Shown one piece after another: positions 1-12,021 of a stretch of DNA of 12,021 bases. Source of the DNA: Desulfobacterales bacterium (GTDB lineage: Bacteria > Desulfobacterota > Desulfobacteria > Desulfobacterales > Desulfobacteraceae). Below the pieces are notes generated by a model. That model was not told where the DNA came from, did no database searches, and saw nothing but the letters and a program-made list of their open reading frames with translations. The stretch lies in assembly GCA_022361535.1 (NCBI GenBank), contig JAKSAU010000979.1, positions 1-12,021 on the forward strand, written 5' to 3'. Position 1 is the stretch's first letter, and the number at the start of each line of letters is the position of its first letter. Position numbers and translations under genes: made by a program.

Positions 1-104
1 ATTCCATTATTAAGGTTCTTGAAACAACTATTCCCAAGGACTTTATGGAAATGAACAAAAAAGCCCTTAATCTTGGTTTTGAAATGGGAGCATCCCAAGC
101 CTGA
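1..104 (+). CDS. C-terminal fragment, possible 2-oxoacid:acceptor oxidoreductase gamma subunit
   Basis: The reading frame beginning at base 3 is open from the window edge and stops at TGA 102-104, giving about 33 residues. The tail contains IPKDFMEMNKKALNLGFEMG. This recalls the C-terminus of the gamma subunits of ketoacid:ferredoxin oxidoreductases (KorC/VorC/IorB type), which end in a helix of the form 'IP.kf.elN.kAl.lGye'. That match is from memory of the family and rests on a short segment, so the product is tentative; the coding status is better supported by the clean frame and the strong terminator that follows. The 5' part lies outside the window. If the call is right, alpha and beta subunit genes should lie just upstream. 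Confidence 0.45.
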   Translation, partial: SIIKVLETTIPKDFMEMNKKALNLGFEMGASQA

Positions 105-132
105 TAACCAATTTAAGAGTGTTGTAAAATTT

Positions 133-170
133 AAGCCTGCTGACAGGAATTCCTGCAGCAGGCTTTTATT
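133..170 (+). terminator. Rho-independent terminator
   Basis: A perfect 10-bp stem, AAGCCTGCTG (133-142) with CAGCAGGCTT (156-165), is topped by a 4-bp inner stem CAGG/CCTG around an AATT loop, with A143 bulged. It is followed by TTTTATTATT. It lies 28 bases after the stop codon of the partial upstream gene and between convergent genes. On the minus strand the tail is only AAATTTT, so it may also stop transcription from 225-533 less efficiently. Confidence 0.88.
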
Positions 171-224
171 ATTCGATAAAGTGTTTTTTTGATAACCAGC
201 CCAAAGGACAAGTATAAAAAACGT

Positions 225-533
225 TTACTCTTTGGCTTTGGGTTTGGCAGGTTCGTCCGAAGATTTTGCCGGAGGGACCGTTGCCGGGAACAGATCCTCC
301 AGGTTAAGTCCTTTTATTTTTTTAAGGCAGTCTTCCAATGCCTCTTCCTCTGTATTACCGGCACCCTGGTGTTCTGAAGTTGCAATGATGTTCACCAAGT
401 TAGGTACAGCAATAAAATCTCCTGCAAGTTGCCCCTGAACTTTCTTGTGAAGATCAATATAGATCATTCTGCCGTTACGGATAAGGTTATACCGGGTCAC
501 CCGGGTTAAAATATCATTGACGTGAAGTTCCAT
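225..533 (-). CDS. Small conserved-type protein, HicB-like alpha/beta pattern
   Basis: This encodes a 102-residue soluble protein with no signal peptide or membrane segment. The start is well supported by AAAAAGGAG placed 6-9 bases before the ATG at 533. Residues 1-75 form an alternating strand/helix pattern: a strand-turn-strand around 'RNGRMIYIDL', then 'GDFIAVPNLVNIIATSEHQGAGNTEEEALEDCL'-like residues, in which the 'G-T-E-E-E-A-L' element resembles the helix after the core sheet in HicB/UPF0150-type folds. The last 20 residues are a Pro/Lys/Glu/Ser-rich tail that is probably disordered. No HicA-like toxin gene is adjacent, so an antitoxin role is not supported and the function is unknown. 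It is divergent from panP, with 146 bases between their start codons. Its fold assignment is a guess; that it is a real gene is likely. Confidence 0.75.
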   Translation of the reverse strand: MELHVNDILTRVTRYNLIRNGRMIYIDLHKKVQGQLAGDFIAVPNLVNIIATSEHQGAGNTEEEALEDCLKKIKGLNLEDLFPATVPPAKSSDEPAKPKAKE

Positions 534-615
534 TTGATTTTCTCCTTTTTTTAGGGTAGACCTGCCATACTTTCAGGCGGTTTTCAAGGGCTTTTTGGTT
601 CACAACCGGCTGAGG

Positions 616-644
616 TTGACATTGGTGCCCTACAGGAGCATGAT
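616..644 (+). promoter_or_regulatory. Sigma-70-type promoter for panP
   Basis: A perfect -35 TTGACA (616-621) is separated by 17 bases from CATGAT (639-644, 4 of 6 matches to TATAAT). This places a transcription start near 651, about 29 bases before the panP start codon. It lies in the intergenic region shared with the divergent small gene. The assignment is by pattern only. Confidence 0.5.
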
Positions 645-679
645 TGAACTTTTAATATTAAAGGTTAAGAGACATTCAA

Positions 680-2353
680 ATGGATACCCCCCCCTCACCC
701 CGTCAGTATCCGGATACAGCATCGGGACAAACCTGCGAACAGGGACTCTCCCAGGAACTCATCGCTGACTGGCAGACCCTTCACAGGGTTTTTATCCGTC
801 CTGAAGATGAGAACAGCAAAAAAACCCTGATCAAATACATGGAACAAATCCTTTTCGGCCTCCATGATTTTCTTAACAAGCACGTTGGGGTTACCGAAGA
901 AATCAGCCTAGCAGAATTGGCAAAGCATTACACAGAGGTGAGGATTAACCGCGAACCCCAGAAAAAACTGGCAGACGTAATTGAAGATATCATTACAGAC
1001 ATAGCACCAAGAGCCGTGAATGTTGCCTCTCCATACTTTATCGGCCACATGACATCTGCCATTCCCTTTTTCATGGTCCATCTCAAAGCAATCTCCGCCG
1101 CACTGAACCAGAACGTAATCAAACTGGAAACCTCAAAGGTGCTTTCCGTACTTGAAAAACAAGTCCTGGCCAAAATGCACCGGATGATCTATCAAAGGGA
1201 AAAAAGCTTTTACCAGAAACATGTGCAAAACACACGTACTGCATTAGGCTCTTTTACCACCGGCGGAACATCTGCCAATATAACAGCCTTGTGGGTAGCC
1301 AGGAACAGGTTGTTTCCCCCCAAAGGCGATTTCACAGGTATTGAAGAAAACGGTTTCTTTGAAGCCATGCGTGCCCATGACACAGACCGGGTGGTCATTC
1401 TTGTTTCTAAACGTGGGCATTTTTCTCTGCGTAAAGCAGGCGGTATTTTAGGCATAGGCAACCAGAACGTCATTGCCCTGGATGTGGACGAAAACCGTTC
1501 TATTGATTTAGACAAGCTGAATCAGACCATCCGGGCGATCAAAAAGGACGGACGTACTAAAATTGCAGCATTGATTGGCATTGCCGGTGCCACAGAAACC
1601 GGCGTCATTGATCCTCTGCCCAAGCTTGCTGATATCTGTGAGCAAGAAGGGATTCATTTCCATGTAGATGCGGCTTGGGGCGGACCGGTTCTATTGTCTG
1701 AGAGGTATTGCCACCTTCTAGAAGGGATACAACGGGCTGATTCAGTGACCATTGACTGCCACAAGCAGTTTTACATGCCCATGACCGCCGGGATGGTCTA
1801 TTTTAAAGATCCAAAAGCCCTGGATGCCATAGCCTACCATGCCCGGTACGTGAATCGGAAAGGGTCTGTGGATTTGGGTATCAAAACCTTGGAAGGCTCC
1901 AGGGAATCTTCTTCTTTGATCCTGGATGCCGCGTTGAAAATCATGGGTTCGAGAGGCTATGGGCTCATGATCGAGCATGGCATCGAAACAGCCCGTGCAT
2001 TTGCAGATAAAATCAATGAACGTCCTCTGTTTGAACTGGTTTCTGAACCTGTGCTCAACATCCTTACCTATCGTGTTGTACCAGAATCCATCCGGGAAAA
2101 GCTTGCAACAGCAAATACCAGCGAACAGATACAATTGAATAAAACCCTGGATAATATCAACACCAACATCCAGCGAATTCAGCGTGAGGCAGGCAAAAGC
2201 TTTGTTTCCAGAACCCGGCTTAAGCTTGATGCAAGTGATAACTTCAATGTAGCGGTATTAAGATCTGTGATCATGAACCCTTATACCACGCCTGAAATCC
2301 TGGATGACATTCTGGACGAACAAGAACTGATCCTGGCTGGATTAAGCTGGTAA
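680..2353 (+). CDS. panP: PLP-dependent aspartate 1-decarboxylase PanP
   Basis: This is a cytoplasmic group II pyridoxal-phosphate decarboxylase that converts L-aspartate to beta-alanine plus CO2, feeding pantothenate and coenzyme A synthesis in bacteria that lack the pyruvoyl enzyme PanD. The 557-residue length fits the PanP family (about 550). Recognisable blocks are SPYFIGHMTS (117-126), the ALNQN and LETSK stretch near 141-153, the PLP phosphate-binding GGTSAN (195-200), HVDAAWGG with Asp330 contacting the pyridine nitrogen, and the Schiff-base lysine Lys362 in DCHKQFYMP. The C-terminus keeps the family block GKSFVSRTRL. A stop at 659-661 leaves ATG 680 as the only reasonable start, although its ribosome site (AAGAGA) is weak. 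It stands alone, convergent with the selenoprotein gene only 10 bases downstream. Family assignment is firm; the aspartate preference over other amino acids is inferred from similarity to Vibrio-type PanP. Confidence 0.9.
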   Translation: MDTPPSPRQYPDTASGQTCEQGLSQELIADWQTLHRVFIRPEDENSKKTLIKYMEQILFGLHDFLNKHVGVTEEISLAELAKHYTEVRINREPQKKLADVIEDIITDIAPRAVNVASPYFIGHMTSAIPFFMVHLKAISAALNQNVIKLETSKVLSVLEKQVLAKMHRMIYQREKSFYQKHVQNTRTALGSFTTGGTSANITALWVARNRLFPPKGDFTGIEENGFFEAMRAHDTDRVVILVSKRGHFSLRKAGGILGIGNQNVIALDVDENRSIDLDKLNQTIRAIKKDGRTKIAALIGIAGATETGVIDPLPKLADICEQEGIHFHVDAAWGGPVLLSERYCHLLEGIQRADSVTIDCHKQFYMPMTAGMVYFKDPKALDAIAYHARYVNRKGSVDLGIKTLEGSRESSSLILDAALKIMGSRGYGLMIEHGIETARAFADKINERPLFELVSEPVLNILTYRVVPESIREKLATANTSEQIQLNKTLDNINTNIQRIQREAGKSFVSRTRLKLDASDNFNVAVLRSVIMNPYTTPEILDDILDEQELILAGLSW

Positions 2354-2363
2354 GTTTTTTTAG

Positions 2364-2696
2364 CTAAAGCCGGGTATAAATGTCTTCGTTGAACCCGATC
2401 AATACCTTACCACCGGTTTTAACGGTTGGAGCCCGAAGGTTTCCGGATCTGCCCATCGCGCTTTTAAGTATGTCCTCTCGGTTGGCCTCATCCGGTGTAA
2501 ATTCAAGGATTTTCTTACCCTTACCAATAAAGACTTGACTTTGCCCCTTGACCATATCCCAGGCCTGGTCTGCATCAATCTTTTCTTTTCTTGCGTCTGA
2601 AATTTGTTCAACACTTATCCCGTTTTCCTCAAAATACTTTTGAGCTTTTCCACAAGACACTCAGCCTTTCCTGATATATGCCCATTCTATCTGCAT
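2364..2696 (-). CDS. ArsC-family thioredoxin-fold selenoprotein (Sec12, UxxC)
   Basis: The frame starts at ATG 2696-2694, preceded at 6 bases by AAAAGGAG, and reads M-Q-I-E-W-A-Y-I-R-K-G before an in-frame TGA at 2663-2661. It continues V-S-C-G-K-A-Q through a further 98 codons. Reading TGA as selenocysteine gives 110 residues with Sec12-Val-Ser-Cys15 at the position of the CxxC/CxxS active site of ArsC/Spx/glutaredoxin-like proteins, at the end of the first strand. The C-terminal 'RAPTV' block supplies the cis-proline typical of the thioredoxin fold (Pro90), followed by a GGKVLIGFNEDIY strand-helix. ArsC-family (seleno)proteins of this kind are known in Desulfobacterota. The likely role is a thiol/selenol reductase; substrate is unknown and arsenate is only one possibility. 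A bSECIS-like hairpin follows the UGA. An automated start at GTG 2660 would remove the first strand and the selenocysteine. It needs selA, selB, selC and selD elsewhere in the genome. Confidence 0.88.
2628..2660 (-). promoter_or_regulatory. bSECIS-like element after the UGA codon
   Basis: In the mRNA, 16 nucleotides after the UGA there is a perfect 7-bp stem CUCAAAA/UUUUGAG closed by the loop GUA (hairpin 2644-2628). The loop begins with G and lies 23 nucleotides after the UGA. This agrees with the bacterial SECIS rule of a short stem-loop with an apical loop G about 16-37 nucleotides downstream. The stem is AU-rich, so it is moderately stable. This is the element SelB would bind to deliver selenocysteyl-tRNA. 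Confidence 0.7.
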
Positions 2697-2736
2697 ATCC
2701 GGCTCCTTTTAAAAATGGTTAATTCGCGGTCTATTT

Positions 2737-2765
2737 AAAATAGTTCCGGGTTCCCTTTACGTCAA
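2737..2765 (-). promoter_or_regulatory. Sigma-70-type promoter for the selenoprotein gene
   Basis: On the minus strand, TTGACG (2765-2760) is separated by 17 bases from TATTTT (2742-2737). Transcription would start near 2730, leaving a leader of roughly 34 bases that contains the AAAAGGAG ribosome site. The position supports the ATG at 2696 as the true start. Pattern match only. Confidence 0.5.
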
Positions 2766-2828
2766 GCCAAGCGCATTACAACCTGAATGATCATATGGAT
2801 TCTTTTATTCGTTTATCTGTTTATTACC

Positions 2829-2857
2829 TTGTTATTTTCAAAACCAATACTTATACT
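2829..2857 (+). promoter_or_regulatory. Candidate sigma-70-type promoter for the UPF0324 transporter
   Basis: TTGTTA (2829-2834), 17 bases, TATACT (2852-2857): four and five matches to consensus. The start site would be near 2864, giving a leader of about 127 bases that contains two adjoining inverted repeats. A weaker alternative is TTGACG at 2860-2865 followed by TAAGAA. Confidence 0.4.
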
Positions 2858-2913
2858 TTTTGACGTTACTCTTTGTCAGAATTAAGAAACACCCACTACA
2901 TAACACTGACCAT

Positions 2914-2948
2914 AATTAAACATGGTTTAATTGACGATATTTTCGTCA
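2914..2948. repeat. Two adjoining inverted repeats, operator-like
   Basis: AATTAAAC-ATG-GTTTAATT (2914-2932) is a perfect 8-bp-arm dyad. It is followed directly, sharing one base, by TGACGA-TATTT-TCGTCA (2932-2948), a perfect 6-bp-arm dyad. Both lie 43-77 bases before the transporter start codon, downstream of the candidate promoter. They could be operators for a dimeric repressor or leader hairpins; the sequence alone does not decide. Confidence 0.5.
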
Positions 2949-2990
2949 CTTTAAATCTATCCAAAACAACTACGAAAAGGATCTTTCATC

Positions 2991-4745
2991 ATGGATCAAA
3001 AAAATGAGGCCGAAAAACCGGATGCGACTGTCACCGATACGGCACAAACCAAGCTAAGCGATTTATGGCTAAAGGAAGATTATTGGGCCATCTGGCTTGG
3101 CTTTGCTCTTCTCATTGCAGGTATGATTATCTTCCTGCCCAATAAACCACAAGGCATGAACACAGTTTTTGAGACATCCAATGCGATGATGGCATCTGAG
3201 GCCCAATCTTCTCCATTTAGAACAGTGGCCTATTATCAGGCACAGGATGCAAAAGAATCTGTAAAAGCAAGAAACCAGGATTTTGCCAAAAAAATCAGCA
3301 CAATTCTTTCTACTCCTGCCGGATGGAAAAACAATTTCATGCAGTCTTTTATATTATCTAAAGAAGACGCCGATCGCATGAATGAGGAAAACAAAAGCAA
3401 ATATGAACAAACAAAGTTAAGTACTCAAGCCGCATTAACCAAGGCCCTGGCTGCCGAGTCTGCTGCCAAGGCTGATGGATATAAAAATGCAGATCTTATT
3501 CAAACAGCAGAAACAACCATTGACGAATGGCGTAAAGCAAAAGCAGCAGAGGGGTCAGCTAAAAGAGGGGTATCAAATAAACCCTATAACAAGTTTCCGA
3601 CACTTATAATTGTAATGGTTTCCATGGGACTTTTCTTTTCCATTGGCATCAAATTCATGGGACATTCTGTGCCTAAATTTCTTCTGGGATTTGTGGTCGT
3701 ATTTTTTGTCAGTGTACTTTCCTATTTTCTGGCAGGCCAGGCAACCATGAAGCATTACGGTGTTGGATATGCGGCCTGGGCAATCGCCTTGGGAATGATA
3801 ATCGCGAATACCATTGGGACTCCCAAGTGGGTAAAACCTGCCCTCCAGGTAGAATTCTTTATTAAAACCGGCTTGGTTTTGCTCGGGGCAGAAGTGCTTT
3901 TTAATAAAATTGTTGCCATAGGGGTTCCAGGCATTTTTGTGACATGGTTTGTAACTCCGGTTGTTTTGGTTACCACATTTATCTTTGGCCAGAAAGTTTT
4001 GAAAATAAAGTCAAAAACCCTCAATATAGTTATCTCTTCTGATATGTCCGTTTGCGGAACTTCGGCGGCCATTGCTGCGGCTGCAGCCTGCCGGGCGAAA
4101 AAAGAAGAATTGACACTTGCTATTGGTCTTTCTTTGATTTTCACATCCATTATGATGATTGTCATGCCTGCTGTGATCAAAGCAACCGGGATGCCTTATA
4201 TCTTAGGCGGCGCATGGATGGGGGGAACTATTGATGCAACTGGCGCTGTTGCTGCAGCCGGAGCCTTTTTATCTGAAAGTGCGTTATATGTCGCTGCCAC
4301 AATCAAGATGATTCAAAATGTACTTATTGGGGTTACCGCTTTTGGTATTGCCATATATTGGACCATGAAAGTCGAGGCAAACAAAGGGCAGCAAGTGGGA
4401 TGGATGGAAGTCTGGCACCGCTTTCCAAAATTCGTACTGGGATTTTTAGCAGCATCGATCTTTTTCTCTTTTCTTTATACTCAAATGGGGGATGATGCAG
4501 GTTTTACCATGATTGATAACGGTGTACTCCGAGGATTTACCCGGATTTGCAGGGACTGGTTTTTCTGCTTTTCTTTTGCCGCTATTGGCCTTGCTACAAA
4601 TTTTCGCGAACTGGCTCACCATTTTAAAGGCGGAAAACCTTTGATTCTTTACGCCTGTGGTCAAGGATTCAACCTAACACTTACCTTGGTAATGGCGTAC
4701 ATTATGTTTTATCTGGTATTTCCTGACATCACAGCCAACATATAA
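2991..4745 (+). CDS. YeiH/UPF0324 family putative sulfate (oxyanion) exporter, long form
   Basis: This is an inner-membrane transporter of the Cons_hypoth698/UPF0324 family. Members next to sulfonate catabolism genes (TauZ type) are proposed to export sulfate; the substrate here is inferred, not seen. Typical YeiH proteins have about 350 residues, but this one has 584. A cytoplasmic start and one membrane helix (about 33-49) are followed by roughly 150 hydrophilic, Ala/Lys/Glu-rich, helix-prone residues (50-202). The transporter core of about ten hydrophobic segments runs from about 203 to the end. The core carries the family motif S-V-C-G-T-S-A-A (353-360), followed by an alanine-rich helix, and the GGAWMGGTIDATGAV loop. 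The start is supported by AAAAGGAT upstream. A hairpin after the stop separates it from two small membrane ORFs. In a sulfate reducer, an exporter of sulfite, sulfate or another sulfur oxyanion would be plausible. Confidence 0.85.
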   Translation: MDQKNEAEKPDATVTDTAQTKLSDLWLKEDYWAIWLGFALLIAGMIIFLPNKPQGMNTVFETSNAMMASEAQSSPFRTVAYYQAQDAKESVKARNQDFAKKISTILSTPAGWKNNFMQSFILSKEDADRMNEENKSKYEQTKLSTQAALTKALAAESAAKADGYKNADLIQTAETTIDEWRKAKAAEGSAKRGVSNKPYNKFPTLIIVMVSMGLFFSIGIKFMGHSVPKFLLGFVVVFFVSVLSYFLAGQATMKHYGVGYAAWAIALGMIIANTIGTPKWVKPALQVEFFIKTGLVLLGAEVLFNKIVAIGVPGIFVTWFVTPVVLVTTFIFGQKVLKIKSKTLNIVISSDMSVCGTSAAIAAAAACRAKKEELTLAIGLSLIFTSIMMIVMPAVIKATGMPYILGGAWMGGTIDATGAVAAAGAFLSESALYVAATIKMIQNVLIGVTAFGIAIYWTMKVEANKGQQVGWMEVWHRFPKFVLGFLAASIFFSFLYTQMGDDAGFTMIDNGVLRGFTRICRDWFFCFSFAAIGLATNFRELAHHFKGGKPLILYACGQGFNLTLTLVMAYIMFYLVFPDITANI

Positions 4746-4759
4746 CCATAATAAGAAAG

Positions 4760-4792
4760 GCCCTGGTGTGGGCTTTTTCACACCAGGGCTTT
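4760..4792 (+). terminator. Strong hairpin, terminator or attenuator
   Basis: A perfect 11-bp GC-rich stem, GCCCTGGTGTG (4760-4770) with CACACCAGGGC (4779-4789), has the loop GGCTTTTT. It is followed by only three T residues before AAAGGA, the ribosome site of the next small ORF. The short T-run makes it an incomplete terminator, perhaps allowing partial read-through into 4805-5086. Confidence 0.65.
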
Positions 4793-4804
4793 AAAGGAAT
4801 AATC

Positions 4805-5086
4805 GTGAAAACGCAAAAGCCACTATCAATAAAAATAGTCCAGTTCACGCTATCTATGGCATTCATCTGGCTGCTGACCTTTAAAATTCTACCCTTTATA
4901 ACAAGCGTGTCATCAAATGCCCGCCAATTGGCAGATTTTATTGATACATCCGGAATTGAAACCGGGCAATTTTATTATACTGGCGTTGAAATCATTACCC
5001 AGGCAGAAAGCAGTGCCAGGGGGGCTGTTTTCTTTACAAACCAACAGAAGAGCGAAAACACAGGTTCTTTAAATCGCGCAGATTAA
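4805..5086 (+). CDS. Small single-pass membrane protein, function unknown
   Basis: This encodes 93 residues starting at GTG 4805, chosen because AAAGGA lies 6 bases upstream. The longer version from ATG 4766 would begin inside the hairpin and has no ribosome site. One hydrophobic helix (about residues 11-35, rich in Ile, Leu and Phe) is followed by a polar domain of about 55 residues, so the protein is likely an N-terminally anchored membrane protein. I do not recognise a family. It sits 59 bases after the transporter and 21 bases before the next tiny ORF. That ORF is in the same frame and separated by a single TAA, so the two may be halves of one interrupted gene. Confidence 0.55.
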   Translation: MKTQKPLSIKIVQFTLSMAFIWLLTFKILPFITSVSSNARQLADFIDTSGIETGQFYYTGVEIITQAESSARGAVFFTNQQKSENTGSLNRAD

Positions 5087-5107
5087 ACCAGGGTAAATAA
5101 CTATTGG

Positions 5108-5296
5108 ATGGATCATCCTGTATCGGACTTGAGTATTAGTTTTAGAGAGCATTTCACTTCTATACAAGAGGCCGGAACTCAAGCCTTGAGGCACTGTGCA
5201 ATCATTTTGGCCAGACCTGTTTTTCAAAATCAAGTAATCACACCTCTCATATTATCTTTAACTTCGATCATTTTTCTCATGGGAAGTTACCTTTAA
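5108..5296 (+). CDS. Tiny ORF with C-terminal membrane helix, possible second half of the preceding ORF
   Basis: This encodes 62 residues starting at ATG 5108; no good ribosome site is visible in the 15 bases before it. The last 20 residues (VITPLILSLTSIIFLMGSYL) form a membrane helix ending at the C-terminus. The first 40 are amphipathic and polar. No family recognised. Its frame is continuous with 4805-5086 except for the TAA at 5084-5086, with no other stop in the 21 bases between. It could be a translated downstream cistron, or the remains of a single protein of about 163 codons broken by a nonsense mutation. Confidence 0.4.
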   Translation: MDHPVSDLSISFREHFTSIQEAGTQALRHCAIILARPVFQNQVITPLILSLTSIIFLMGSYL

Positions 5297-5363
5297 CTTA
5301 ATCTGGACATTAAAAATCAAAAGACCTAACATTCAAAGATTAATGACTAAAGGAGTTATAATT

Positions 5364-5990
5364 ATGCCCCCTTTTCCTATGCTTTTGAGTGTTGCATCAA
5401 TTTGGGCGCTGGCTGTCATTACTCCCGGACCCAATTTCTTCATTACGGCGCAGACAACAGTCAATCATTCCCGTTTCGCAGGTTTTTTTATAGTTTTAGG
5501 TACTTGTACAGGAACAATGATTTGGTCTCTTGCCGGTTTTTTCGGAATAGCATCCCTATTCATTATGGCCCCATGGCTTTATATTACCTTAAAAATAGCA
5601 GGCGGAAGCTACATCTTTTACCTTGGTATCATGATGATCATCAACTCATTTAAACCCTCGACCAACCCTGACACTTTTACCAAAATTTCTCAAAGCAGAT
5701 TTTTAAACTGGAGAAAAGGATTGGTAACCAACCTATCCAATCCCAAAACAGCTATGTTTGTAACAAGCTTATTTGCATCTGTTCTCCCCAAAGAACCAAC
5801 TATAGGCCTTGGCGTCTTGGTTTTGTCTTTAATGGTTATGATCTCATTCGTCTGGTATTCATTTATTGTAATAATCTTTTCATCCAATGGATTCAGATAT
5901 TATTACAATAGAATGCAGAAGTGGCTGGAAGGTTTTGCCGGAATCATTTTTATGGGTTTTGGTGCCAAACTCATTTTCAGTGACAAATAA
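5364..5990 (+). CDS. LysE/RhtB family amino-acid exporter
   Basis: This is a polytopic inner-membrane protein of 208 residues, the usual length for LysE/RhtB exporters, which expel amino acids or related metabolites by proton exchange. The N-terminal signature ALAVITPGPNFFITAQTTV, followed by a glycine-rich second helix with GTCTGTMIW, is characteristic. The mid-protein FLNWRKGLVTNLSNPKTAMF block before the C-terminal helices also matches. The start ATG 5364 follows AAAGGAG at 8 bases; the upstream in-frame ATG 5343 is less likely. It has its own terminator-like hairpin downstream, and the 67 bases upstream show no clear promoter. The substrate cannot be told from sequence. Confidence 0.9.
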   Translation: MPPFPMLLSVASIWALAVITPGPNFFITAQTTVNHSRFAGFFIVLGTCTGTMIWSLAGFFGIASLFIMAPWLYITLKIAGGSYIFYLGIMMIINSFKPSTNPDTFTKISQSRFLNWRKGLVTNLSNPKTAMFVTSLFASVLPKEPTIGLGVLVLSLMVMISFVWYSFIVIIFSSNGFRYYYNRMQKWLEGFAGIIFMGFGAKLIFSDK

Positions 5991-6025
5991 TTAAGTATAA
6001 TTTTTCTAATTTGTTCTTTTTGATG

Positions 6026-6055
6026 GGTAGTAGCTATGTTGGTGTACTACCTTTT
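6026..6055 (+). terminator. Terminator-like hairpin after the LysE gene
   Basis: GGTAGTA (6026-6032) pairs perfectly with TACTACC (6045-6051) around a 12-base loop and is followed by TTTTC. It lies 35 bases after the stop codon. The stem is short, so it is probably a moderate terminator. Confidence 0.55.
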
Positions 6056-6066
6056 CAACTTCTCTT

Positions 6067-6158
6067 TAGTTTTCAGGTATTTTTTCTTCAATGCCCGGTT
6101 AGCACAATTAATTTTTGATAGTTTTTTACTTTTCAGGTATTTAGTAATACAGTCCCGG
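6067..6158 (+). repeat. Two direct repeats exactly 60 bp apart upstream of the sigma-54 activator gene
   Basis: Copies at 6067-6098 and 6127-6158 share TTTTCAGGTATTT and, 11 bases further on, CCCGG. Within the 32-bp unit about 22 positions agree, with the two blocks fully conserved and the middle variable. The second copy overlaps a weak TTGATA-N17-TATTTA promoter (6115-6143). They may be binding sites controlling the activator gene or a short local duplication. Confidence 0.5.
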
Positions 6159-6189
6159 AACTAATAGTGATGCATGTTTTATTAAAACC

Positions 6190-6206
6190 AGTCCTTTAAA
6201 AGGACT
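6190..6206. promoter_or_regulatory. Short palindrome before the activator ribosome site
   Basis: AGTCCTT-TAA-AAGGACT is a perfect 7-bp-arm inverted repeat, ending 7 bases before the GCGGAG ribosome site of the 6223 gene. It could form a leader hairpin affecting translation or be an operator. Low certainty as to function. Confidence 0.4.
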
Positions 6207-6222
6207 TAGCGGAGAATGACCT

Positions 6223-8085
6223 ATGAGTGAAGGTCCAAAGCCAGAAGAACAAGATGGACATCTATACAAATTAAAAAAGGTTGAATCCGCTTACAAAAAA
6301 GAAATTAAACGTCTGACAGAAGAGAATAATATTCTTGAAGAGGCACTAGACGGCATACCGGACATCATTGGGATTCAAAAACCCGATCACACAGTGGTTC
6401 GGTACAATAAAGCAGGGTGTGAAGCTGTTCAAAAATCCCAAGAAGAAGTTATCGGGCAGCCCTGCTATTCATTATTGGGCAAGCCTGTTTCCTGTGAAGA
6501 CTGTGCAACTCACCTTGCGCTGAAAAGTAAAAAACTTGAGACTATAGAGCGGTTTATACCGGAGTTAAACAGGTATTTTATCTGCCGCAGCAGCCCTGTT
6601 TTAGATGATTCAGGAAACGTCAGCCATATTATTGAACAACTACATGACATTACCCACCGCAAACAGCTTGAAACAGAAAAGGACCACCTTATTGCTCAAC
6701 TACAGTCTGCTATTTCTGAGATGCACAGCCAGGCGCTATACAAAATGCTTGCAGAAAGAATCAGCGAAGGGGTGATTATCGGATATGAAAATAGAATTGT
6801 ATATGCCAATCCTGCCGCCTTAAGTATTTTAAAAAGAGGGGAAGACGAACTCTACAGAATACAGCCAAAAACTCTTATTCATAACGACCACATAAAGTCT
6901 TATGAGACCATGATCCAGGGTGCACAAAACAAGAATCCCCAAAAGGAGTTCGAACTTTGCTGTTTGGACAGCAATAGCAGTGAAATATGGATACAGGCAA
7001 ACTGCAGGCCCCTTGAATGGGAAAAAGAAGAAGGTATCCTTATAACATTCATGGATATTACCCGGCAAAGAGAAAAGCGGCTGGTTGCAAAAAAGGAAAC
7101 GTCCCGGCTTAAAAAAGAGAACAGACTTTTGCGCTCCAAACATATTCACCCATATGGTTTGGCTCATCTGGTTGGAACCAGTGATGTCATGCAGGACGTT
7201 TATGATAAAATCATCAATGCCATACCCATTGACGAGAATGTAATTATCTACGGGGAATCCGGTACCGGAAAAGAACTGGTGGCCAAATCCATCCACGATT
7301 TAAGTCACCGCAAAAATGGTCCTTTTATTGCTGTTAATTGCGGCGCCATACCGGAAAACCTCGCGGAAAGTGAATTTTTCGGACATAAAAAAGGGGCTTT
7401 CTCCGGGGCGGACATGGATAAAGTCGGTTTATTTGAAAGCGCCCATGACGGCACCCTCTTCCTGGATGAAATCGGTGAAATACCTCTGCCATTGCAAGTA
7501 AAACTACTGCGTGCCATTGAAGGTTACGGATTTTCCCCTGTTGGCACCACAGAGGTTAAAAAATCGAATGTCCGAATCATTGCCGCCACCAACCGGGACC
7601 TGAAAATCATGGTCAAGAACGGAACGGTTAGAAAGGACTTTTATTACAGGATTCACATCATTCCCATCCAGCTTCCGCCTTTAAAAAAGAGAAAAGAAGA
7701 CATCCCGCTTCTCGTGTATCATTTCACCCGGAAGATGAACCCATCCGGGCCCAAAAGACATATACCTGACGATGTAATTGAAAAGTTTACAACCCATGAC
7801 TGGCCAGGCAATGTAAGGGAATTACAGAACACTGTTTCCCGGTATCTTGCATTTGACAATGTGGAATTTGTAGAATCCGGTATTGAAACATCCCTCCCGG
7901 ACAACATGACTACTGAAAACGGATCTCAAAAGGGGAGAAACTTAAACTCCCTGCTTGCTGCATATGAACGCCAAGTAATCGGAACTGCTATGAAAGAAGC
8001 AGAGGGAAACAAATCCCTGGCCGCAAGAATTCTTGGTATTGACCGCCGTTCTCTTCACAGGAAAATTTCTCGCTTGGATCTATAG
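6223..8085 (+). CDS. Sigma-54-dependent activator, PAS-PAS-AAA+-Fis HTH
   Basis: This is a cytoplasmic enhancer-binding protein of 620 residues that would remodel sigma-54 RNA polymerase closed complexes using ATP. The order is an N-terminal coiled coil (about 14-42), PAS 1 (about 43-147), a linker helix, PAS 2 (about 172-285), a second coiled coil (285-305), the AAA+ domain (about 314-540) and a Fis-type helix-turn-helix (about 577-620). Walker A is GESGTGKE (Lys350) and Walker B is Asp415-Glu416. The sigma-54-contact loop reads GAFSGA (391-396), with Ser394 replacing the usual Thr. No receiver domain is present, so ligand or redox sensing by PAS is likely. PAS 1 holds Cys66, Cys81, Cys91 and Cys94, the last two as CxxC. 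GGAG lies 8 bases before the ATG. Directly downstream are three dyad sites and a -24/-12 promoter, so the next two genes are the probable targets. Confidence 0.95.
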   Translation: MSEGPKPEEQDGHLYKLKKVESAYKKEIKRLTEENNILEEALDGIPDIIGIQKPDHTVVRYNKAGCEAVQKSQEEVIGQPCYSLLGKPVSCEDCATHLALKSKKLETIERFIPELNRYFICRSSPVLDDSGNVSHIIEQLHDITHRKQLETEKDHLIAQLQSAISEMHSQALYKMLAERISEGVIIGYENRIVYANPAALSILKRGEDELYRIQPKTLIHNDHIKSYETMIQGAQNKNPQKEFELCCLDSNSSEIWIQANCRPLEWEKEEGILITFMDITRQREKRLVAKKETSRLKKENRLLRSKHIHPYGLAHLVGTSDVMQDVYDKIINAIPIDENVIIYGESGTGKELVAKSIHDLSHRKNGPFIAVNCGAIPENLAESEFFGHKKGAFSGADMDKVGLFESAHDGTLFLDEIGEIPLPLQVKLLRAIEGYGFSPVGTTEVKKSNVRIIAATNRDLKIMVKNGTVRKDFYYRIHIIPIQLPPLKKRKEDIPLLVYHFTRKMNPSGPKRHIPDDVIEKFTTHDWPGNVRELQNTVSRYLAFDNVEFVESGIETSLPDNMTTENGSQKGRNLNSLLAAYERQVIGTAMKEAEGNKSLAARILGIDRRSLHRKISRLDL

Positions 8086-8087
8086 CC

Positions 8088-8123
8088 TGTGACATATTGC
8101 CCCACCCGGGACAATATGTCCCT
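8088..8123. promoter_or_regulatory. Paired upstream activator sites (UAS1 and UAS2)
   Basis: UAS1 (8088-8104) is TGTGACA-TAT-TGCCCCA. UAS2 (8107-8123) contains the perfect 15-bp palindrome GGGACA-ATA-TGTCCC. Their centres (8096 and 8115) are 19 bp apart, near two helical turns, so dimers would bind on about the same face. GACATATTG and CAATATGTC also form a 9-bp-arm inverted repeat across the pair. The first site begins 3 bases after the activator gene's stop codon. Binding by that activator is inferred from position and symmetry. Confidence 0.65.
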
Positions 8124-8178
8124 TTCCTTTGCCAATTATAAGTTTGGGGGGTGAACATGCCAAAATCCCGCAAACAAC

Positions 8179-8195
8179 TGTGACACTTTGTCCCA
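8179..8195. promoter_or_regulatory. Third upstream activator site (UAS3)
   Basis: TGTGACA-CTT-TGTCCCA repeats the 7-3-7 architecture of the two upstream sites (consensus TGKGACA-N3-TGYCCCA). Its centre (8187) is 72 bp from UAS2 and about 120 bp upstream of the -12 element, a normal distance for an enhancer of a sigma-54 promoter. Confidence 0.65.
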
Positions 8196-8235
8196 GTTAT
8201 TAAAAACACCTATCCACGGTCCTCTGAAACGCCTT

Positions 8236-8279
8236 CACAATAAAAATAATATAATTTCAGCACATTAAAAATAATACAA
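8236..8279 (+). repeat. 19-bp AT-rich direct repeats between enhancer and promoter
   Basis: CACAATAAAAATAATATAA (8236-8254) and CACATTAAAAATAATACAA (8261-8279) match at 17 of 19 positions and begin 25 bp apart. They lie between UAS3 and the -24/-12 promoter, where an IHF-type bend is often found. No clear IHF consensus was seen, so a bending or nucleoid-protein role is only inferred. Confidence 0.6.
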
Positions 8280-8295
8280 CACTAATTTTCACACA

Positions 8296-8310
8296 GGCAC
8301 CCATGTTGCT
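8296..8310 (+). promoter_or_regulatory. Sigma-54 (-24/-12) promoter
   Basis: GGCAC (8296-8300), five bases, TTGCT (8306-8310) gives GG and GC exactly 12 bp apart, close to the consensus TGGCAC-N5-TTGCW (only the leading T is A). The start site would be near 8321, about 37 bases before the receiver gene's ATG. The upstream dyad sites and the adjacent enhancer-binding protein gene strengthen the call. Confidence 0.88.
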
Positions 8311-8357
8311 AATGTTCAAGCGGATCTTTAAACCATGTTTGAGTAGTTGGATGACCA

Positions 8358-8753
8358 ATGAACATTTTAATAATTGATGCTGAAGAAGATACTGCAGACA
8401 GCTTAGCCAAAATGCTGCAAGGCTGGGATCACAATGTGGTCCGTGTGTCCACAGATGCAGAAGCCATTGCTAAATCAAAGCAGTCCTTCTTTGAAGTTGT
8501 TTTAATGGAACTGGTTTTAAAAGGTATGCCTGTTTATCAGATCATTCCTGATTTAAAGCTCTACAATCCAGGTGTCAGTGTGATTACAATGACCCGGGAA
8601 AATTCCCCGGACCTGGAAAAAAAGGCGAGAGAACGCGGTATTTCGTTTTATACGGGTAAACCCGTTGACCGCGGTCTGCTAAAACAAATCTTGGATCAAT
8701 TGACTATCTTCCACCTCAATTCCGGGGATTGGAAGATGGTGGCACCCTTTTAA
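8358..8753 (+). CDS. Receiver-only protein with Glu at the phosphorylation site (pseudo-receiver)
   Basis: This encodes a 131-residue single receiver domain with no output domain. It begins MNILIIDAEED, ends helix 5 near residue 115, and carries a short C-terminal tail. Compared with CheY/NtrC receivers, the conserved Thr (Thr79) and Lys (Lys101, in TGKPV) are kept. The phosphoacceptor Asp in the VLMDL block is Glu51 (VLMEL), and the second acidic pocket residue after strand 1 is Ala8. Ordinary Asp phosphorylation is therefore not expected, and Glu at this position often mimics the phosphorylated state. It is the first gene after the sigma-54 promoter and lies 24 bases before the chemoreceptor gene, so a role in the same chemosensory pathway (CheY-like, adaptor or sink) is plausible. 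The ribosome site is weak (GTTGGATG). Fold certain, function inferred. Confidence 0.9.
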   Translation: MNILIIDAEEDTADSLAKMLQGWDHNVVRVSTDAEAIAKSKQSFFEVVLMELVLKGMPVYQIIPDLKLYNPGVSVITMTRENSPDLEKKARERGISFYTGKPVDRGLLKQILDQLTIFHLNSGDWKMVAPF

Positions 8754-8777
8754 AACAAAGCTGATATAGGAGATATT

Positions 8778-11300
8778 ATGAATTGGAAGAATTTAAGTAT
8801 ATTTAAAAAAATCGGTGTTGGACCTGGGATTGTAATCATCTTTCTGGTGGCCATAGGCGCTCAAAGTTTTCTTGGGGTAACCGATATTTTAAATGATTCC
8901 AAGGAAGTCATATATGGTAACCGCCTTGACGGGACAATGACCCAAAAAGAGGTTGACCAATTGGCCTGGGCCAACCGGTTGGGCAAATTATTAAAAGGGG
9001 AAGACCCAGGCAATCTGGATATAGAAACAGATCATACCAAAAGTTCTTTGGGGAAATGGCTTTATGGCGAAGACCGTAAAATAGCAGAGCAGATGGTGCC
9101 TGAACTTGCACCTCTTTTTAAAAATATTGAAGTCCCCCACAAAGAAATGTATGAGTCTGCTAAACTTATCAAAGAAACCTATAAACCAAACCATAACGGA
9201 TTGGATCTTGTTTTATCCAAACTGTTAGGAAACCAACTGACCTGGGTGGCAGACTTAGGAAAAGCAATTGCTGAAGAATCTGCCGGGATTTATGTATACC
9301 AGAGCCTTCTTAAGACCAGTACCCAGCAGGCCATGTCACAAATCAAAGCCCTTGATAAACGAACAGATCTTACTCTTGCAGAGCGCAAAGCATTGGCCTA
9401 TGAGAACCTTAAAAATCTGCGGTACGGTGAAAATGATGATGGATACTTCTTTATCTTGGATACTGATGTCAATATGGTCATGCATCCCCACAATCTTTCA
9501 TTGGAGGGTAAAAGCCAAACAAAAACCCCTGATAAGCGCGGAGACCTGTTTTTCAATGACATTGTGGAGGTCGCCCAAGCAAATGACAGTGGGTTTGTAA
9601 CGTATTATTGGCAGCTGCCGGGAAGCGATGAAATCGCGCCGAAGATATCTTTCTCCCAGATTTATAAGCCCTGGAATTGGGTCATTGCAACCGGATTTTA
9701 TGTTGACCATACCAATGCCCGTCTTATGGAACGGGTTGAAGCATTTGCTGCAGAGGTGCCTTACTCTTGTGGTTTACAGTTAAATCATAAGAAAACTGAT
9801 CTGGGCAAATTTATATTATCTGAAGAGGCCCAAAAGCTTGCAGAAGAATTTCCTGCACTCAAAGAAACCTTAGCCGGAATTTCTGCTCCCCATCAGGCAA
9901 TCCACATCTTAGCTGTGGATATTGAAGATGCCATTAATGAACTGAATATGCCGAAAGCGATTAAAATATATCAAAATCAAGTACAGGCCAAACTTGACGA
10001 AATTCAAAAGCTTTTAACCCACACCATTGAAGCGGAAAAAGCTTTGAAACAGACAAAAGTGGTTGCCGAGACCATTTTTACAGAACAGACCCTTCCTAAG
10101 CTGGCGGAATTGGGAATCGCATTAAATGAAATTCGCACCAATGCCCGTGAGCACATCACAACAGATGCGGCGATCTTAAATGGTGCAACCTCCCTTCGGA
10201 CCCGGGTGGTCATATTCAGTTCCATTGCTGTTGCTATCGGTATTTGCCTGACATTTCTCATTGCGGCCAGTATCAGCCGCCCCCTGACCAAAACCATAGA
10301 TTTTGCAAAGACAGTAGCATCCGGGGACCTGACACAAAAAATCGACATCAATCAAAAAGATGAGGTGGGATCATTGTGTGTTGCCATGAATGAAATGTCC
10401 GGGCACCTCAATGAGATGTTTACCGATGTAAATAAATCTGTTCACACTCTTACCTCTTCAGCTACAGAACTTTCAGCCGTTTCTGAGCAGATCACCAACA
10501 ATTCTTTGCAGACAGCTGAAAAATCCACCAATGTATCCGGAGCCGCAGAGGAGATGACCGGTAATATGAATTCGGTTGCCGCTGCTACAGAGCAGGCTAC
10601 ATCCAATGTTCAGATGATCGTTTCTGCTGTTGAAGAAATGTCTTCAACCATTAACGAAATCTCTAAGAATACATCCAAAGGGAGCCAGACCACGTCAAAG
10701 GCAGTGGAAAATGCAAAGCAGGTTTCCATTAAAGTTGATGAACTTGGACAAGCTGCTTCGGAAATCAGCAAGGTCACCGATTCTATTGCCGATATTTCGG
10801 AACAGACCAACCTGCTGGCATTGAATGCTACCATAGAGGCTGCAAGAGCCGGAGAAGCGGGCAAAGGATTCGCCGTAGTTGCAAACGAAATAAAAGCCCT
10901 TGCCCTTCAAACTGCAGAGGCAACTCAGGAAATCAGTTCAAGAATTGATGGGGTCCAGGTAACCACAAATGAATCCATCCAGGCAATTGAAACCATTGTC
11001 AATGTCATCAACGATATTGATGCCATTGTGATTTCAGTCGCCACTGCCATCGAAGAGCAGTCTGCCGGAACTCAGGAAATTTCCCAGAATGTAAACCAGG
11101 CAGCTTCCGGGCTCGAAGAAGTGAACCAGAACGTAGGCCAGACATCTCATATTGCCACATCCGTAAATCAGGATATCAACGAAGTTTCCCGGGCAACAGA
11201 CGAGATGAAGACCGGTAGCAGCCAGGTCATGAGCAGTGCAACTGAACTGTCGAGGATGGCAGAAAGCCTAAATGAAATGATCAGCCGGTTTAAAATATAG
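8778..11300 (+). CDS. Methyl-accepting chemotaxis protein, CZB-like/sCache periplasmic region
   Basis: This is an 840-residue transmembrane chemoreceptor. TM1 spans about 13-34. Its periplasmic region (about 35-475) starts with a CZB-like four-helix module (about 44-132) containing AWANRL, LGKWLYG and PHKEMY. An sCache-type sensor domain (about 165-310) contains DGYFFI (221-226), VMHPH and VIATGFYVD. A second CZB-like half (about 321-385) contains LGKF and PHQAIH. TM2 is 477-499, HAMP about 500-553, and the signalling tip is EQTNLLALNATIEAARAGE (675-693). The zinc Cys is missing in both CZB-like modules (Ser89, Thr340). The C-terminus lacks the NWETF-type CheR tether. AGGAG lies 7 bases before the ATG, and the gene forms an operon with the pseudo-receiver under the sigma-54 promoter. 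The ligand is unknown; sCache domains often bind small carboxylates. Confidence 0.95.
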   Translation: MNWKNLSIFKKIGVGPGIVIIFLVAIGAQSFLGVTDILNDSKEVIYGNRLDGTMTQKEVDQLAWANRLGKLLKGEDPGNLDIETDHTKSSLGKWLYGEDRKIAEQMVPELAPLFKNIEVPHKEMYESAKLIKETYKPNHNGLDLVLSKLLGNQLTWVADLGKAIAEESAGIYVYQSLLKTSTQQAMSQIKALDKRTDLTLAERKALAYENLKNLRYGENDDGYFFILDTDVNMVMHPHNLSLEGKSQTKTPDKRGDLFFNDIVEVAQANDSGFVTYYWQLPGSDEIAPKISFSQIYKPWNWVIATGFYVDHTNARLMERVEAFAAEVPYSCGLQLNHKKTDLGKFILSEEAQKLAEEFPALKETLAGISAPHQAIHILAVDIEDAINELNMPKAIKIYQNQVQAKLDEIQKLLTHTIEAEKALKQTKVVAETIFTEQTLPKLAELGIALNEIRTNAREHITTDAAILNGATSLRTRVVIFSSIAVAIGICLTFLIAASISRPLTKTIDFAKTVASGDLTQKIDINQKDEVGSLCVAMNEMSGHLNEMFTDVNKSVHTLTSSATELSAVSEQITNNSLQTAEKSTNVSGAAEEMTGNMNSVAAATEQATSNVQMIVSAVEEMSSTINEISKNTSKGSQTTSKAVENAKQVSIKVDELGQAASEISKVTDSIADISEQTNLLALNATIEAARAGEAGKGFAVVANEIKALALQTAEATQEISSRIDGVQVTTNESIQAIETIVNVINDIDAIVISVATAIEEQSAGTQEISQNVNQAASGLEEVNQNVGQTSHIATSVNQDINEVSRATDEMKTGSSQVMSSATELSRMAESLNEMISRFKI

Positions 11301-11356
11301 CCATGTGATCAACAAAAGGGACTCAAAATCTTCATTTGATTAAGAGGCTCAAACTT

Positions 11357-11397
11357 AGGGCCGCCTCTAAAGATTCTTACAGGGGCGGCCTTCTTAT
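11357..11397 (+). terminator. Rho-independent terminator of the receiver/chemoreceptor operon
   Basis: GGCCGCC (11359-11365) pairs with GGCGGCC (11384-11390). Flanking A-U, G-U, C-G and U-A pairs extend the stem to about 12 bp (11357-11368 with 11381-11392). The loop is 12 bases, and TTCTTATTT follows. It lies 57 bases after the chemoreceptor stop codon. Confidence 0.85.
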
Positions 11398-11634
11398 TTA
11401 GCGCATTCCCAAAAAACCAAATTCTAAAAATGGCCCCCCTTTAATTGCGTAATTGCAAAACACTTGTAGCTATAGGCAGAAGCTTCAGTTGAAATAGTAA
11501 AGGTGCTGGCAAGAAAAACACTTTTTTTCTGCTATGTAGCAGATGCTACAGACACCATACAAATACTTTCGTATTTTGGGTATCGAAACATTTTAGATGT
11601 ACGATCCTAATCAATTTAAAATAAGGAGATCTCA
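11398..11634 (+). other. AT-rich intergenic leader with overlapping inverted repeats, upstream of the flavodoxin gene
   Basis: No ORF is supported in this stretch. CTGCTA-TG-TAGCAG (11529-11542) overlaps GTAGCA-GA-TGCTAC (11536-11549), so two mutually exclusive hairpins, or three TGCTA half-sites, are possible. AAATAC-TTTC-GTATTT (11561-11576) is a third hairpin, and a run of seven T residues lies at 11522-11528. No recognised riboswitch class or clear -35/-10 pair was found. The ribosome site AAGGAG precedes the next start codon. Confidence 0.45.
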
Positions 11635-12021
11635 ATGAAAGTATTAGTGACTTATTTCAGCCAGAGTGGAAATACTGAGAAAATAGCAAAAGCCATATAC
11701 GAGGAAGTTACGGCCCAAGGTGGTAATGCTGATTTGAAAAAGCTTGAAGAACTTACCCCTGAATTGGTTGCCGATTATAATTGCATCTTTATGGGATCCC
11801 CCTTGCACTCAGGCAGCCTGGCAGCCCCGATAAAAGAATGCCTGAAAGTTCTCAAAGCGACTACCGGCCAACAGATGGCGGGATTTATCACCCATATGGC
11901 GCCTGCCTATCCGGAACAGGACATGGAAGCCTTTGCAGAACCTATGAAAGCAGCCTGCCAGGAAAAAGGTATTGAGTATAAAGGATGTTTTGATTGCCAG
12001 GGCTTTTTGGCGGAATCCATG
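11635..12021 (+). CDS. Flavodoxin-family protein, 5' part
   Basis: ATG 11635 follows AAGGAG at 7 bases, and the frame stays open to the window edge (129 codons). The N-terminus MKVLVTYFSQSGNTEKIAKA carries the FMN phosphate-binding loop S-Q-S-G-N-T of flavodoxins and NAD(P)H:quinone oxidoreductase-like flavoproteins. The second nucleotide-contact loop is MGSPLHSGSLAAP, and the third region contains FITHMAPAYPE. A CFDCQG element near residues 119-124 is the usual tail strand in single-domain flavodoxin-like proteins of anaerobes. Up to the window edge it looks like a single flavodoxin domain with one-electron carrier or quinone/thiol reductase potential; C-terminal additions cannot be excluded. 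Its own transcription unit is likely, since the chemoreceptor terminator precedes it. Confidence 0.9.
   Translation, partial: MKVLVTYFSQSGNTEKIAKAIYEEVTAQGGNADLKKLEELTPELVADYNCIFMGSPLHSGSLAAPIKECLKVLKATTGQQMAGFITHMAPAYPEQDMEAFAEPMKAACQEKGIEYKGCFDCQGFLAESM

Follow-up and report, generated by a model that had tools for sequence, protein, structure and literature searches.

A thioredoxin-fold protein gene with an in-frame TGA that is almost certainly read as selenocysteine in a Desulfobacterales contig

A 2006 survey reported ArsC-like selenoproteins in Desulfotalea psychrophila and a 'distant ArsC homolog' in Desulfuromonas acetoxidans (PMC1794560). In the Sargasso Sea, arsenate reductase selenoproteins have the motif UxxS, U being selenocysteine (Sec) (PMC1088965), and the GOS survey gives both 'ArsC 1' (UxxS) and 'Arsenate reductase 2' (UxxC, cd03032) (PMC2398784). 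An entry 'arsenate reductase-like' stands under COG1393 in a 2022 review (PMC9312934). In the table of a 2026 review, NF041106 appears as a UxxC selenoprotein family, 'Arsenate reductase-like protein', and the UxxS form as a separate entry, TIGR00014; the functions of such selenoproteins are described there as largely uncharacterized (PMC13188914). We analyzed a stretch of 12,021 nucleotides from a Desulfobacterales bacterium (contig JAKSAU010000979.1, positions 1 to 12,021; hereafter the window), in which the minus-strand gene at 2696–2364 almost certainly encodes a protein of the thioredoxin fold in which an in-frame TGA specifies selenocysteine as part of a UxxC motif. A literature search in a limited collection returned nothing under the name 'ArsC family selenoprotein'.

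Translation of 2696–2364 with TGA read as U gave a protein of 110 amino acids, MQIEWAYIRKG-U-VSCGKAQ..., with a single internal TGA at 2663–2661. A 98-amino-acid open reading frame (ORF) starting with GTG is present at 2660–2364 of the same strand. An earlier note on this DNA had proposed that the TGA, read as Sec, joins the GTG ORF to eleven upstream codons, and the translation, the conservation of the TGA in relatives and the coding pattern ahead of it bore this out. It had also placed Sec12 at the CxxC position, and the translation indeed has U12-V-S-C15, in agreement with the [UC]xxC pattern of NF041106, 'ArsC family (seleno)protein' (ArsC_rel_Se_1). The Sec form matched this model with 128.3 bits over profile positions 1–107 of 107 (cut-off 85). 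The GTG-started form scored 104.2 bits and its match begins at profile position 12; as the note had stated, the GTG ORF is without the first strand. Taken together, these sequence comparisons make it highly probable that the gene encodes a selenoprotein and belongs to the NF041106 family. The features are as follows.

2364..2696, minus strand: predicted gene for an arsC-related selenoprotein, 110 codons followed by the stop TAG, with Sec12-Val-Ser-Cys15 by translation
2661..2663, minus strand: TGA in frame, decoded as selenocysteine (residue 12), TGA in 80/80 best loci and TGC in 5 relatives
2652..2654, minus strand: codon of Cys15, by alignment the predicted resolving cysteine of UxxC
2427..2453, minus strand: codons 82–90, conserved GRSGNLRAP loop including the invariant Pro90, from a 74-row alignment
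2703..2710, minus strand: Shine-Dalgarno-like AAAAGGAG, 6-nt spacer to the ATG at 2696
2737..2765, minus strand: sigma70-like promoter match TTGACG-N17-TATTTT, weak
2628..2644, minus strand: apical hairpin of a putative bacterial selenocysteine insertion sequence (SECIS), CTCAAAA-GTA-TTTTGAG, loop G 23 nt after the UGA

A homologue search over 5.8 billion proteins returned 105 homologues. Position 12 was Cys (P0007 and P0010 among them) or Trp in the full-length ones, and many of the shorter homologues began right after it; the Trp would reflect gene calls made under code 4. Scanning one genome per species confirmed at least 584 loci, and the best 80 of these were used for comparisons. All 80 had TGA at the Sec codon, following a largely conserved MxI(D/E)WAYxRKG; the deviating N-termini read WGYFRNG (L063, L067, L079) or had WLY, WIY or WMY instead of WAY (L005, L028, L047, L078, L080). 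G001 was the best match of the genome scan; the 86 genomes of its family contained 30 genes above the cut-off, 25 with one TGA and five without any, the latter having TGC at codon 12; two further genomes of the 86 gave partial, sub-threshold matches only. When 148 genomes were sampled evenly across the phylum, the protein family was found in nine, each time with one TGA. In the set of distinct genes, position 12 was U in 93 and C in 5 of 98. This set was collected with a motif that fixed W5, Y/F7, R9 and C15 and allowed only U or C at position 12, so that these columns are conditioned; the best 80 loci were not filtered by the motif and had N-termini of the same kind. Cys15 was invariant in an 18-row alignment and present in 98/98 distinct genes, where the collecting motif required it. 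The closest relative in the tree set shared 72% identity with the window protein (L093). Cultured relatives include Desulfocicer vacuolatum DSM 3385 (L044) and Desulfuromusa kysingii DSM 7343 (L069). Among viral contigs, six stretches fitted a pattern, with no relative among them.

The data on the selenocysteine machinery concern SelB and tRNA-Sec in the genomes of relatives. SelB was above the cut-off in 9/9 and in 10/10 of these genomes, the ten including all five genomes with a Cys gene, and altogether in 24/24 distinct family-bearing genomes checked (9 + 8 more + 7 more; repeats and G039, which had no family match, are left out), as compared with 2/14 control genomes. In the phylum sample, SelB was found in 131 of the 148 genomes, all nine family-bearing ones among them. 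A tRNA-Sec match above the cut-off was obtained in 8/9 relatives' genomes.

If the UGA were an ordinary stop, the product would be the 98-amino-acid GTG ORF, perhaps made by re-initiation after an 11-codon leader. The GTG directly follows the UGA, it is preceded at a distance of 4 nt by AGGAAAGG (the same bases being codons 9–11, RKG, of the longer frame), and several database entries begin at the GTG position. The claim of the earlier note that the GTG lacks a ribosome site was therefore overstated, and the comparative argument is the better one: a start codon (ATG, GTG or TTG) occurs at position 13 in only 5/98 distinct family genes, the window included, and relatives do not generally have one at the GTG position. 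The note had named consistent starts of relatives at the GTG, without conserved residues upstream, as a finding that would overturn its reading. Substitutions upstream of the UGA were also of the coding type. Among 87 Sec genes with an ATG start (window included), pairwise differences in codons 2–11 were 0.21, 0.08 and 0.57 at codon positions 1, 2 and 3, respectively, as compared with 0.65, 0.68 and 0.66 in the 30 nt preceding the start. Judged by this pattern, the coding extension upstream of the UGA exceeds chance. The replacement of UGA by a Cys codon in one clade and the lack of strand 1 and residue 12 in the short form argue in the same direction, and we regard termination at the UGA as very improbable. 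Cys-12 homologues with continuous N-termini, which according to the note would support its reading, do exist (the TGC genes among the 30 above-cut-off genes). One might also consider that the TGA comes from an error in sequencing or, in a pseudogene, from the decay of a TGT or TGC codon, given that the window's protein was found on one contig only. An error at the TGA is very unlikely because the same TGA is present in all of the best 80 loci; the reading frame is conserved on either side of it, and the probability of an error or pseudogene is negligible. Returning to the selenocysteine reading, the ATG is preceded by the Shine-Dalgarno-like stretch that the note had described, and the promoter match that it had proposed is present at 2765–2737, but hardly above chance (four sites of this class in 2250–3000 vs. 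a shuffled mean of 1.8, S.D. 1.4). The truncated annotation that it had anticipated is exemplified by HUN04_23825 of a Desulfobacter sp. metagenome-assembled genome, a 98-amino-acid 'hypothetical protein' starting right after position 12. The description 'overlooked' holds for this locus and for gene calls, but not for the family itself, which is already named (NF041106) and listed as a UxxC selenoprotein.

The AlphaFold2 model of the 110-amino-acid protein (mean pLDDT 93.4) has the thioredoxin-fold order beta-alpha-beta ... beta-beta-alpha, in which helix 1 carries the motif at its N-terminal end. The folds nearest to the model are Spx and ArsC-related chains. In the 74-row alignment, G82, G85, L87, R88, A89 and P90 are invariant. 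In ArsC, the residue before the Pro would be the arsenate-binding Arg94, the full set being Arg60, Arg94 and Arg107. The residue before Pro90 is Ala in 74/74 rows of the alignment, and Spx has Arg (R92) there. This makes a true arsenate reductase using Sec very improbable, as do the score against Pfam ArsC (PF03960), 16.3 bits and below the gathering score of 24, and the motif, which is UxxC and not the classical ArsC HX3CX3R (PMC3169414). In addition, no arsenic gene was recognised in 33 neighbour clusters by eye and in nine family scans, no arsenic-family search having been made. Spx and YffB are closer to the family in character than arsenate reductase is. One may think of a selenium-based Spx-type switch in anaerobes, in which Sec12 and Cys15 would sense the redox state: under stress by oxygen or sulfur they would form a selenenylsulfide of low potential, altering the contact with RNA polymerase or another partner. 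Selenium chemistry would then act directly in gene regulation. We consider such a switch very improbable, since the score against TIGR01617 (Spx/MgsR) was 26.8 bits as compared with a cut-off of 75.05, the position of Spx R92 is Ala, and the model puts a beta hairpin into the insert (residues 54–66), about where, by our reading of the alignment, Spx has helix alpha4. In Spx, this redox-responsive helix carries R60 and K62 (PMC2801614). Nothing joining Spx with selenocysteine, ArsC and RNA polymerase was found in the limited literature collection.

By analogy with other UxxC and CxxC proteins, the protein is probably a UxxC thiol/disulfide oxidoreductase. SelB, bound to a hairpin just 3' of the UGA, would deliver Sec-tRNA(Sec), so that the UGA would be decoded as residue 12. 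The product would be a Spx/YffB-like thioredoxin-fold protein with Sec12 just before helix 1 and Cys15 three residues later. Since other UxxC/CxxC proteins use the two residues in this manner, Sec12 may attack as a selenolate and Cys15 may act as the resolving thiol in disulfide or mixed-disulfide chemistry on some partner.

The putative SECIS hairpin of the window has a 7-bp stem and a GUA loop and starts 16 nt after the UGA. The fold z was -2.70 for a 54-nt stretch of the window against dinucleotide shuffles, and -2.69 for the 45 nt after the UGA against synonymous shuffles. With the latter type of shuffle, the 93 Sec genes had a mean fold z of -1.27 just after the UGA vs. -0.08 to -0.26 in four other stretches, whilst for the five Cys genes the values after the codon were -0.25 and -0.37 and those of other stretches ranged from -0.67 to 0.84. 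We counted hairpins by a simple rule of our own (loop of 3–8 nt with G in its first two bases, 16–37 nt after the UGA). By this rule, a stem with a minimum of 5, 6 and 7 bp was present in 89, 73 and 54 of the 93 Sec genes, respectively, where synonymous shuffles gave 43.9, 24.0 and 8.0, and in 2, 2 and 0 of the five Cys genes, where 1.3, 1.0 and 0.1 were expected. Among the 73 Sec genes with a stem of at least 6 bp, the loop lay at 23 nt in 36 and at 20 nt in 18. In the 23-nt register, analyzed in 81 distinct rows, 72.7% of the cells were paired as compared with 66.8% in shuffles, and the covariation score was 0.269 as compared with 0.177, 0/500 shuffles being as high in either case, although related sequences can outdo such shuffles without structure. 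This register also surpassed slides of -3 to +3 on both pairing and covariation score. The pair counts are mixed but favourable to a conserved hairpin. A second register, with the loop approximately 20 nt after the UGA (GCACA-GGC-TGTGT type), was seen in L008, L011, L014, L016, L021, L024, L028 and other, mostly Desulfobulbaceae, loci.

Position 12 was masked in the 98 genes for a tree of 100 rows, which has many open forks and an arbitrary root. The five TGC genes (L081, L085, L090, L094, L098) formed one group (support 100/100) within a set of 20 rows (96/95), of which the window and genomes of Desulfobacteraceae are also members. P0062 and P0090, two more proteins with Cys, were placed on long branches in other parts of the tree. 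On this tree, the simplest reading is a single change from Sec to Cys in a lineage that still has SelB. The Cys clade may serve as a small natural control, as its five genomes keep SelB and none of its genes has a stem of 7 bp or longer following the codon.

Several observations weigh against a selenocysteine codon followed by a conserved hairpin. L088 and L110 fall outside the collecting motif, yet have one TGA each, and the best tRNA-Sec match in G004 (40.8 bits) is below the cut-off of 47. Against synonymous shuffles, the window alone gave a z of -0.05 for 36 nt and a weak -0.83 for 42 nt after the UGA, and the contrast between Sec and Cys genes comes from five related Cys genes. Two-sided cells in the 23-nt register numbered 41 vs. 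15.4 in shuffles, but a slide of -2 gives 40. In the same 81 rows, two-sided changed pairs (4) and pair types (12) were not above shuffles, nor was the covariation of the 20-nt register in the whole set. When stretches of 47 nt were folded by plain energy minimization, the hairpin came out in the window and in many relatives, not in all (the folds were not counted). Finally, no conserved operon and no neighbour naming a partner was found at the best 80 loci and in the window. Scanned with Rfam at gathering thresholds, the window gave no match.

The neighbours of the best 80 loci and of the window were grouped, and the 33 clusters with at least four loci were listed. A BioF-like gene lies within 600 nt on the same strand in 13 loci (e.g. 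L028:6352–7539); its representative scored 413.6 bits against TIGR00858, below the cut-off of 426.45. Other frequent neighbours within 600 nt are RqcH/fibronectin-binding-like (5), weakly MbfA/encapsulin-ferritin-like (5) and ferritin (5) genes. The representative of a cluster further down in 15 loci matched no NCBIfam model; we take it to be another biotin gene. The window occurs in just two listed clusters, PAS/sigma54-type and chemoreceptor-type. Neither is adjacent to the gene in the window and the neighbours vary, and therefore no function was drawn from context.

In the window, the selenoprotein gene looks monocistronic, with a convergent decarboxylase gene on one side and a divergent PF03601 gene on the other. 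The convergent pyridoxal-dependent decarboxylase gene (680–2353, PF00282) ends 10 nt from the stop of the selenoprotein gene. The divergent gene (2991–4745) encodes a membrane protein with a PF03601 match from residue 233, a long N-terminal part lying outside the match; PF03601 is presumably the YeiH-type family. The best synteny for this gene was 73% DNA identity over 956 bases (G005). The chemoreceptor gene at 8778–11300 has a CZB zinc-binding domain match in its N-terminal part (62–131), ahead of the Cache and HAMP domains. A crude scan of the window for other frames with one TGA, at least 90 codons and a Cys within three gave two more candidates, both on the plus strand, at 180–509 and 2364–2738. 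The former runs antisense over a minus-strand ORF (225–533) and is probably due to chance; the latter is antisense over the selenoprotein gene itself.

The analysis corrects one gene model, and the 93 distinct Sec and five Cys genes show how well the UGA and the hairpin have been kept. As the functions of such selenoproteins are largely uncharacterized, this is one of several families on which selenoprotein biochemistry could readily be done. Among known systems, Spx (1z3e, 3ihq, 6ghb) has CxxC at the same place, the same fold and a C-terminal VGYNED-like stretch as in the window protein, which differs from it in scoring below the Spx model cut-off, in the change of R92 to Ala and in the predicted beta hairpin of the insert. 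YffB (2kok, 1rw1) shares the ArsC-related fold with a weak sequence match (1rw1, E 0.05). It is without the full ArsC arginine triad, is proposed to be a glutathione-dependent thiol reductase and has the motif GX3CX3K (PMC3169414), whereas the window protein has UxxC. The Sargasso Sea and GOS forms belong to the ArsC superfamily and, like the window protein, have Sec at the attacking position; the second GOS form is also UxxC and is likened here by description. The UxxS arsenate reductase form, unlike the window protein, is without a resolving Cys. The ArsC-type selenoproteins of Desulfotalea and Desulfuromonas come from the same broad bacterial group as the window and are likened to its protein by description, which does not imply that they are of the same subfamily. 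The NF041106 family has in common with the window the whole-length match, the UxxC motif and a mixed Sec/Cys membership, with no notable difference between them; the window gene is a fresh example of this already catalogued selenoprotein family and leaves the picture of selenoproteins unchanged.
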